Below, one piece after another: positions 38,096-42,444 of a stretch of 47,075 nt of DNA; position 1 is the first letter of the stretch; each line of letters starts with the position of its first letter. Source of the DNA: a virus; the IMG/VR virus record IMGVR_UViG_3300028025_005268, positions 1-47,075 of that record. One strand, 5' to 3'. The notes beneath the pieces were generated by a model. The model saw only the letters and a list, made by a program, of their open reading frames with translations, was not told the DNA's origin and ran no database searches. The position numbers were made by a program, and so were the translations under genes.

Positions 38096-38710
38096 ATGAA
38101 TAAAAAAATACTTGAATCGGCTAAAATTCTTGGTTTAGATATCAGTACAAAGACCATTGGGTTTGCGTTATTTGATATTTCGGGGTCAAAGTTATTGGAG
38201 TTAACACACTTTTCTCCAAAAATTAAACCACAACCCGAAGACAAAATAGAAGAATTAATTAAGAAGGCAGATGCGTTTAAAAAACACATTGAAAACTATA
38301 AAGGAATGGGTATTACTCGTGTCATTATAGAAGAGCCACTACTTCAATCTAATAATATCTACACAATTGGTACGTTATTACGTTACAACACTTTAATTCT
38401 TAAAGTATGTTATGACGCATTAGGAATCTTACCAACATTTATCTCCACATATAACTCAAGAAAATTTGCGTTTCCCGATTTGGTCGGTCCAAATGACAAA
38501 GGACGAAATGTATTATTTGGGGGATACCCAAAAGATATTGATAAGAAACACGTTATATGGGAACACGTTAATGAGGTTTGTCCTGACATCAATTGGTTAT
38601 ATGGAAAGACAGGAAATTTAAAGAAAGAAAATTATGACATGGCGGATGCTGCATGTTGTGTTATTGGATATGTAAATATGATAAAAGATTTAGAAAAAAG
38701 TAGTAAATAA
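38096..38710 (+). CDS. RuvC-like Holliday-junction resolvase
   Basis: A 204-residue endonuclease of the RNase H-fold RuvC type, which would cut four-way junctions formed during recombination and replication before packaging. The catalytic acidic residues are in the expected order and context: D15 (ILGLDISTKTIGFALFD), E79/E80 (RVIIEEPLL), and D181/D184 near the C-terminus (YDMADAACCVIGY). The length is close to RuvC (173) and to other phage RuvC-like enzymes. T4 itself uses an unrelated resolvase (gp49), so this is a functional substitution. It follows the tail module after a 39-base gap and precedes the small-RNA locus. Confidence 0.87.
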   Translation: MNKKILESAKILGLDISTKTIGFALFDISGSKLLELTHFSPKIKPQPEDKIEELIKKADAFKKHIENYKGMGITRVIIEEPLLQSNNIYTIGTLLRYNTLILKVCYDALGILPTFISTYNSRKFAFPDLVGPNDKGRNVLFGGYPKDIDKKHVIWEHVNEVCPDINWLYGKTGNLKKENYDMADAACCVIGYVNMIKDLEKSSK

Positions 38711-38711
38711 C

Positions 38712-38742
38712 TTTGTTTTCTTAATTATTTTATTTATATTTA
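38712..38742 (+). promoter_or_regulatory. Bacteroidota-type promoter of the small RNA locus
   Basis: TTTG at 38712-38715, a 19-base spacer (beginning TTTTCTTAATT), and TATATTTA at 38735-38742. The start of transcription is expected near 38748. The spacer shares its first eleven bases with the promoter at 42096, so it is more than a chance match. Confidence 0.78.
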
Positions 38743-38747
38743 ATAAT

Positions 38748-38819
38748 GTAGGTCGGGAATGTAGCAATACATTCTTGGTTGGTAGGGAGTCGGGGTGGTG
38801 TTCGACTCCCATTTTTTTG
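38748..38819 (+). ncRNA. Candidate phage small RNA, two hairpins
   Basis: An unannotated transcript of about 70 bases is predicted between its own promoter (38712-38742) and a terminator. Hairpin 1 is GAATGTA-GCAA-TACATTC (38757-38774), a perfect 7-bp stem with a GNRA-type loop. A single-stranded linker TTGGTTGGTA follows, then hairpin 2/terminator (38785-38810). No start codon with a sensible reading frame uses the interval: the in-frame ORF that crosses it has no Bacteroidota-like or primase-like content until ATG 38862. A tRNA is excluded because the TTCGACTCC stretch has no matching T-stem, and there is no acceptor or anticodon arm. Function unknown; a regulatory or host-targeting RNA is inference. 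Confidence 0.65.
38785..38818 (+). terminator. Terminator of the candidate small RNA
   Basis: GGGAGTCG (38785-38792) pairs perfectly with CGACTCCC (38803-38810) around a 10-base loop, followed by A and seven T (38812-38818). It is one of the strongest terminators in the window and stands before, not after, the primase gene. Confidence 0.88.
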
Positions 38820-38849: not shown

Positions 38850-38857
38850 TATCTTTC
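38850..38857 (+). promoter_or_regulatory. Weak -7-like element before the primase gene
   Basis: TATCTTTC lies five bases before the start codon at 38862, a one-base mismatch to TAnnTTTG. The -33 position is T-rich but lacks G. Because a strong terminator ends just upstream, the primase group needs a new promoter and this is the best candidate. Confidence 0.4.
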
Positions 38858-38861
38858 GGTC

Positions 38862-39806
38862 ATGACTGACCAAAAAGTAGATTATACCCCCGTTATTGAT
38901 ATTCTTGAGGATATTTTGGGAAATCCAAAACTCCACAACGATTACAAAGGACAAATTTCTTTTGATTGTCCGGTTTGTTCATATGATATTAAGGAATTAG
39001 ACCACGGTGATGGTAAAGGAAACCTTGAAATTAACTATAAAGAGAATGTCTTTAAATGCTGGTCGTGTTCAGAAACACATGGAACTCACGGTTCACTTTA
39101 TAAGTTAATTAAACAACACGGTAATCCTAAACATCTAAAGAATTATCTAATTCTTAGACCGGATGAGGACGGTGATTCACCAAAACGAGTATATCAACAA
39201 GTTAGATTACCCAAAGAGTACATTAGATTTAAGGATGTAAGTAGAGGAATGAGTTTAACACCTCAATTCAAACAAGCATATAACTATATTAGGAAACGTA
39301 ACATCACAGACGAGATGTGTGATAGATACAACATAGGTTTTTGTCTTGACGGTGATTACGGAAATAGAATTATCATTCCATCATATGATGAATATGGTAA
39401 ACTTAACTACTTTATTGCTCGTTCGTATCTAACATACACCAAATTAAAATATAAGAATCCCGAAGTACAGAAGGAGATTATCATATTTAATGAGAAGTTG
39501 ATTAATTGGAATGAAAAGATATACATTGTTGAAGGTGCGTTTGATAGTATATTCATACCAAACTCAATACCAATGTTAGGTAAGTTTATGTCAGACCATT
39601 TATTTAATAAACTGTATGACCAAGCAAAAGGTGGGTTAACAATTGTATTAGACCCCGACGCGTGGAATGATGCTGAACGATTATATCATAGAATTAACTG
39701 TGGTAAATTAATGGGTAAGGTAAACATTGTAAAATTAGAGGGTGACAAAGATATTGCGGACTTGGCTGGCAATTTAAGTGATTACAGAGAAAAACAATTA
39801 GACTAA
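38862..39806 (+). CDS. DnaG-type DNA primase
   Basis: A 314-residue primase that would make RNA primers for the gp41-like helicase. It has a zinc-ribbon (C36-P-V-C39 and C66-W-S-C69, the second in FKCWSCSETHG) and a TOPRIM catalytic domain: E224 in IYIVEGAFDSI and D264/D266 in IVLDPDAWNDA. The core phrase YNIGFCLDGDYGNRIIIPSY is typical of DnaG and T4 gp61. I choose ATG 38862 (MTDQKVDYTP). The in-frame ATG at 38775 lies inside the small-RNA terminator and would add 29 unrelated residues. It starts a recombination/replication operon: nuclease, gp47, gp46. Confidence 0.9.
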   Translation: MTDQKVDYTPVIDILEDILGNPKLHNDYKGQISFDCPVCSYDIKELDHGDGKGNLEINYKENVFKCWSCSETHGTHGSLYKLIKQHGNPKHLKNYLILRPDEDGDSPKRVYQQVRLPKEYIRFKDVSRGMSLTPQFKQAYNYIRKRNITDEMCDRYNIGFCLDGDYGNRIIIPSYDEYGKLNYFIARSYLTYTKLKYKNPEVQKEIIIFNEKLINWNEKIYIVEGAFDSIFIPNSIPMLGKFMSDHLFNKLYDQAKGGLTIVLDPDAWNDAERLYHRINCGKLMGKVNIVKLEGDKDIADLAGNLSDYREKQLD

Positions 39807-42095: not shown

Positions 42096-42126
42096 TTTGT
42101 TTTCTTAATTTTTTTACCTATATTTT
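42096..42126 (+). promoter_or_regulatory. Bacteroidota-type promoter, same family as the small RNA promoter
   Basis: TTTG at 42096-42099, a 19-base spacer starting TTTTCTTAATT, and TATATTTT at 42119-42126. The start codon of the downstream membrane-protein gene is at 42130, within the expected start of transcription, so the mRNA would be leaderless or nearly so. Confidence 0.75.
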
Positions 42127-42129
42127 AAT

Positions 42130-42444
42130 ATGGAATTAATTATTTTTTGGATTTTAGCGGGTTATGGAATGACCTCTATCCTCGTTTGGGGCTCTATCTT
42201 TGAAGGAGCGCGCAATTTTATAAAGAAACACTCTAAGTTTTTTGGTGACCTTATATCGTGTACATTATGTACTGCAACATGGGTTGGTTTCTTTATGTCA
42301 ATTACATTAGGTGGTTTAGTTAACACCTATGTGGAAGTTGAAATGATACCTTTTACCATATTTTTTGATGGAATGTTCGTCGCAGGAGCCGTTTGGGCGA
42401 TAAACGCAATCGTCGAATTTTTCGAGGAGAGTAGAATCAAATAA
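42130..42444 (+). CDS. Small membrane protein, DUF1360-like
   Basis: A 104-residue integral membrane protein. Three hydrophobic segments are visible, at about residues 1-20 (MELIIFWILAGYGMTSILVW), 48-64 and 79-96. Between the first two lies LISCTLCTATWVGFFMS: C44-x2-C47 followed by TATW-x-G, a signature of the DUF1360 family found in phages and bacteria. The function of that family is unknown. It begins 4 bases after its own promoter and is followed 6 bases later by an unknown protein. A role in modifying the host inner membrane is a guess. Confidence 0.78.
   Translation: MELIIFWILAGYGMTSILVWGSIFEGARNFIKKHSKFFGDLISCTLCTATWVGFFMSITLGGLVNTYVEVEMIPFTIFFDGMFVAGAVWAINAIVEFFEESRIK

Follow-up and report, generated by a model that had tools for sequence, protein, structure and literature searches.

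The window analysed here is the whole 47,075-base virus record IMGVR_UViG_3300028025_005268. Its genes are distantly T4-like and encode a single-strand binding protein, a UvsX-like recombinase, a DnaB-like helicase, a ribonucleotide reductase, an SbcCD-like nuclease and a head maturation protease. The locus under study lies on the plus strand between a gene for a RuvC-like resolvase (38096-38710; phrog_159, 1e-06) and a gene for a DNA primase (38862-39806; phrog_47, 1.5e-38), which starts with the ATG at 38862 (MTDQKVDY). The closest primase among phage records was that of Flavobacterium phage immuto (33% identity), itself T4-like (gp20, gp23), and the phages bearing the RNA described below are a clade of large T4-like phages. 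Of 18 related records, 8 encoded the ribosomal protein bS21 (PF01165), among them a close relative of 269 kb; the records harboring both this gene and the RNA were G001, G002, G003, G004, G005, G010, G015 and G022. Carriage of bS21 fits the published freshwater bS21 phages, which are predicted to infect Bacteroidetes (PMC9723584), without proving membership of that group. Given the T4-like genes, the primase nearest to that of immuto and the bS21 shared with the freshwater phages, the host is probably a member of the Bacteroidota.

The original prediction had placed at 38712-38819 a near-perfect promoter, a GNRA-loop hairpin, a G/T-rich linker and a strong terminator, and all of these elements are present in the sequence. 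The candidate small RNA, delimited by covariance model and alignment, spans about 68 nt of the plus strand (38750-38818, with a predicted start at 38747-38750), and covariance model R1 matched the window at 38749-38816 with 79.6 bits, the window copy itself being one of its training sequences. Helix I, supported by covariation (38755-38776; arms 38755-38763 and 38768-38776), is capped by a GCAA tetraloop (38764-38767) and extended by weaker pairs between 38751-38754 and 38777-38780. The linker GUUGGU (38778-38783) contains the GUUGG invariant in the alignment and a GGU predicted to be unpaired. Helix II (38785-38810), recovered both by terminator prediction and by covariation, is an intrinsic terminator stem-loop displaying the invariant loop GUGGUG (38795-38800) and followed by a U-tract of seven T (38812-38818). 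A G+C-rich stem-loop followed by a U-tract is what characterizes intrinsic terminators, while an invariant loop goes beyond the features of that family. The locus folded at -28.5 kcal/mol (z -4.24), and none of 200 shuffled sequences was equally stable.

Two of the predicted elements changed shape on closer inspection. The linker TTGGTTGGTA is present, but it forms mostly the 3' side of the extended helix I and leaves mainly GGU unpaired (RNAalifold). The loop described as 10 bases long comprises 6 to 10 nt depending on wobble closure, and its invariant part is GUGGUG (UGGUG across all relatives read). The region had been described as devoid of sensible coding content, and coding is indeed unlikely: because the primase frame does not stay open through the hairpin in 15 of 63 relatives, and the distance to the primase ranges from 23 to 58 nt, the RNA region is not an N-terminal extension of the primase.

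The promoter consists of a -33 element TTTG (38712-38715), a 19-nt spacer and a -7 element TATATTTA (38735-38742), both elements on the plus strand. The -7 element resembles the sigma-A consensus of Flavobacterium psychrophilum, TAnnTTTG at -12 to -5 (PMC9723704). The promoter described as near-perfect is thus close to the Flavobacterium consensus but no match to sigma-70 of E. coli, as the scan listed no sigma-70 promoter at the site and the promoter is of Bacteroidota type instead. Among 55 distinct upstream regions, a TATA(T/C)TT box occurred 51 times, 13-16 nt ahead of the conserved start of the RNA. Besides its sequence, the -33 element is supported by the enrichment of CTTTGT, with other 6-mers, around starts in the window phage and three relatives, and by a T-rich block conserved at -38 to -35 upstream of 55 distinct RNA copies. 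A second -7-like element, TATCTTTC (38850-38857, plus strand), lies just before the primase start, and with a loose pattern 22 of the 23 relatives with a placeable primase ATG showed such a box in the 30 nt before it (in 32 more relatives the ATG could not be placed automatically). Since -7-like boxes precede the primase ATG, the sequence suggests that the primase is transcribed separately from the RNA. Like phage trans-acting sRNAs, and as far as sequence features can tell, the RNA would be transcribed from its own promoter and end at its own terminator. Another copy of the promoter-like stretch (TTTTG...TATATTTTAAT) was found in the window at 42096-42130, directly before the ORF at 42130, which suggests a shared phage promoter class.

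The RNA unit was found in 77 of 80 resolvase-anchored IMG/VR relatives, and the three loci without it (L008, L014 and L032) were apparently cut by contig ends before the RNA was complete. Upstream of the primase, it was present in 66 of 67 distinct regions, 63 of them by a strict rule (terminator hairpin with a UGGUG loop) and three read by eye (L401, L425 and L431), in which the RNA was recognised despite imperfect stems or an N. The exception was L354, whose primase is 50% identical. In L025, L053 and L058 a gene is inserted after the resolvase and the RNA unit still adjoins the primase. No RNA was found upstream of the primase in immuto and Mel-JY01, where plain terminators stand instead.

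Searches with the covariance model returned about one strong match per record where the RNA was present, across 26 related records. Most recognised phage copies scored 35 to 91 bits, while 396 genomes of one flavobacterial order gave no convincing match under stricter filters (best 31.7 bits), a search that weak bacterial relatives could escape, as low scores under this model are also seen for the most divergent phage copies. The bacterial matches were treated as chance, a score of this size being able to arise randomly in 396 genomes; two of them, with GUUGGU and GUGGUG, were short terminators after small genes and lacked helix I. Flavobacterial terminators with UUUAGUUGGU and a GUGGUG loop, again without helix I, were located at L486:1501-1550 and at L487:543-640 and 1501-1549, following a repeated family of small genes; their likeness to the phage RNA is curious and probably due to chance. 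When the hits of loose IUPAC scans over viral and bacterial contigs were scored with the covariance model, most proved to be chance matches. A partial model match of 25.7 bits at L443:2670-2740 (G001:36169-36239, minus strand) combines a GUAGAAAUAC hairpin with a GGUUGG linker, has GAAA on its terminator in place of the UGGUG loop, and is possibly a paralogue or a chance match. Rfam 15 gave no match at the gathering threshold in the window and 13 relatives, and only sub-threshold noise at relaxed thresholds.

A two-hairpin RNA structure on the plus strand is kept by compensatory change at one conserved locus. In an alignment of 38 sequences, 96.2% of the paired cells were standard pairs and 15 of 18 pairs had changed on both sides (6 of the 9 core pairs of helix I and all 9 pairs of helix II). 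The covariation score reached 0.742, against 0.185 for shuffled alignments and 0.08-0.28 with the partners slid. Fitch parsimony on a resolvase tree counted 97 two-sided changes (helix I, 27; helix II, 70) against 17 breaks, counts that recombination could inflate as the tree is built from one gene. Compensatory substitutions beyond controls are the hallmark of a structured non-coding RNA. The original prediction of a self-contained small RNA locus, which was to stand or fall with hairpins maintained in this way among relatives, is thereby strongly supported, and the two-hairpin RNA is almost certainly a working RNA.

Parts of the RNA hardly varied. Pairs 7-33 and 8-32 of helix I form a tandem G-U in all but one cell and are never G-C or A-U, which is unusual for a plain stem. 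These two near-invariant wobbles account for 73 of the 111 paired cells occupied by G-U; because G-U pairs would become C-A mismatches on the opposite strand, they favor an RNA of the plus strand over a DNA element. The linker GUUGG (columns 35-39) and the loop GUGGUG (columns 53-58) underwent no change on the tree across the 38 sequences, so that the loop and the linker, singled out originally as possible seed regions, are indeed the most constrained parts of the RNA. Even L344, L350, L422, L431 and others, the most divergent relatives, kept UGGUG in the terminator loop although their two stems had been rebuilt. Other terminators in three relatives carried unrelated and varied loops, and among the terminators of these relatives UGGUG stood in the loop of this one only. 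The terminator with a CCACCA loop in G008 had no counterpart in the terminators identified in G001 or G002.

These features are best explained, with a fair probability, by a separately transcribed, trans-acting phage sRNA of about 68 nt whose terminator loop would be the contact site. The host sigma-A RNA polymerase would transcribe the RNA from its own promoter and stop at its own terminator, apart from the primase, and the product would act in trans. Helix I would stabilise the 5' end, while helix II would both end the transcript and serve as a scaffold displaying UGGUG, through which a conserved partner may be recognised. Because the loop stays constant across diverged phages while the rest drifts, the partner is expected to be equally constant, and a conserved protein of phage or host, or a conserved host RNA, would be likelier than a fast-changing phage mRNA. 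Between short loop (kissing) pairing and protein binding, pairing is slightly preferred. Against a trans-acting sRNA, the invariant core of five bases is short for an antisense seed, and the constant position before the primase could mean a role in cis.

The target tests also weigh against it. The loop complement ACACCA was rarer in phage start regions (339 per million) than in gene bodies (1155 per million), a depletion that does not support simple antisense blocking of phage starts; of the seed-region proposal, the constraint on loop and linker stands, but an antisense role for them gains no support from phage starts. Within coding sequences, ACACCA was enriched in RNA-bearing phages (z 2.4 to 7.3) and not in immuto (z -1.6). 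As this enrichment is modest, exceeded by that of many unrelated 6-mers and confounded by codon context, it was set aside as support. Binding to the anti-Shine-Dalgarno sequence was rejected, since the invariant loop U faces a U in what we take to be the 16S tail, ACACCUCC; that tail pairs with GGUGU, and with the variants GGUGC and UUGGUGU the pairing spans only four or five bases. The 3' end of many tRNAs (those with C72-A73) reads CACCA, to which UGGUG is complementary; this five-base match could be chance, and tRNA ends gave no support as a target. A bolder version, which we regard as a long shot, is that the UGGUG loop binds near-universally conserved host translation or RNA machinery (e.g., a component of the ribosome or the CCA ends of tRNAs) and so complements the phage bS21 in host takeover, and that the RNA represents a new sRNA family of T4-like and jumbo Bacteroidota phages.

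A variant of the trans-acting reading, in which the RNA works not through base pairing but as a decoy, cofactor or guide that binds a protein of the phage or the host, is a serious possibility that we rate somewhat below an even chance. UGGUG, together with the GGU of the linker and the tandem G-U pairs, would make up the protein site. An invariant loop on a freely varying stem is what such a site would look like, the two G-U pairs of helix I are never replaced by G-C or A-U (one cell is broken), the five-base invariant core likewise suits a protein site, and no base-pairing target was found at phage starts or in coding sequence. The display of the loop on a hairpin, however, suits kissing pairing equally well.

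The position of the RNA directly upstream of the primase in 66 of 67 distinct regions (at 23-58 nt where measured), kept even when genes are inserted upstream, would also agree with a cis-acting attenuator or leader of the primase operon, that is, a regulated terminator whose read-through sets the primase level. This is unlikely, as no competing (antiterminator) pairing appeared in the consensus fold, the sequence of helix II is freely replaced, the stem is strong and its U-tract long, and 22 of the 23 relatives in which the primase ATG was located have a promoter-like box between it and the terminator.

An ordinary 3' end of the resolvase transcript, made of a terminator and a stabilising hairpin, would account for an RNA that begins shortly past the resolvase stop codon and for the plain terminators before the primase in immuto and Mel-JY01, but is very improbable: a conserved promoter box separates the stop codon from the RNA, the RNA is retained when another gene becomes the upstream neighbour, and nothing would oblige a plain terminator to conserve the letters of its loop, which vary in the other terminators of three relatives. 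Equally improbable is a DNA-level element (a replication origin or a hairpin for primase loading) or a transcript priming replication through an R-loop, as at T4 origins, for although the locus adjoins the primase in an AT-rich intergenic spot and gives a G-rich transcript, the abundant G-U pairs point to RNA pairing, a strong terminator would be odd for a primer and the conserved loop letters would be left unexplained.

Returning to the trans-acting sRNA, several known RNAs share some of its features. Phage T4 produces the stable small RNAs C and D, which are non-coding and of unclear function; they are likewise small RNAs of a T4-type phage, but are longer and lie elsewhere, in a tRNA cluster. 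BTncRNA_FopS (RF04319), an sRNA of Bacteroidetes, similarly ends with a hairpin and then a U-rich end, and membership of this family was rejected (12.7 bits versus a gathering score of 56). In T-box riboswitches, UGGN pairs with the CCA end of a tRNA, which the complementarity between UGGUG and CACCA resembles, whereas the phage RNA has no T-box match in Rfam and no antiterminator, and is not a leader. Phage regulatory sRNAs (reviewed in PMC12197685) are likewise short, with their own promoter and intrinsic terminator, features that are predicted here; no description of one was found for these phages or with the present structure.

A literature search, covering sources other than subscription journals and preprints, found no description of the RNA, which appears to be undescribed so far; within this literature, sRNAs of Bacteroidota phages are nearly undescribed, as the original prediction had stated. 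The RNA combines strong evolutionary evidence of structure with about one copy per genome, and its invariant loop provides a precise, testable candidate contact site. The carrier phages resemble published phages that are transcriptionally active in lakes, and the RNA can be sought in existing metatranscriptomes.

A second structured-RNA candidate was observed in the same and in other phages (L456:~551, minus strand; L460:~2446, plus strand; L490-L544). It gave no Rfam match and no tRNA or tmRNA call. Its layout comprises one or more hairpins, a conserved TTAGGACCGGG and a terminator following it, whose stem is capped by the loop GAATTCGCTACTC, and it was matched by 55 IMG/VR stretches, with two copies on one contig (L500).
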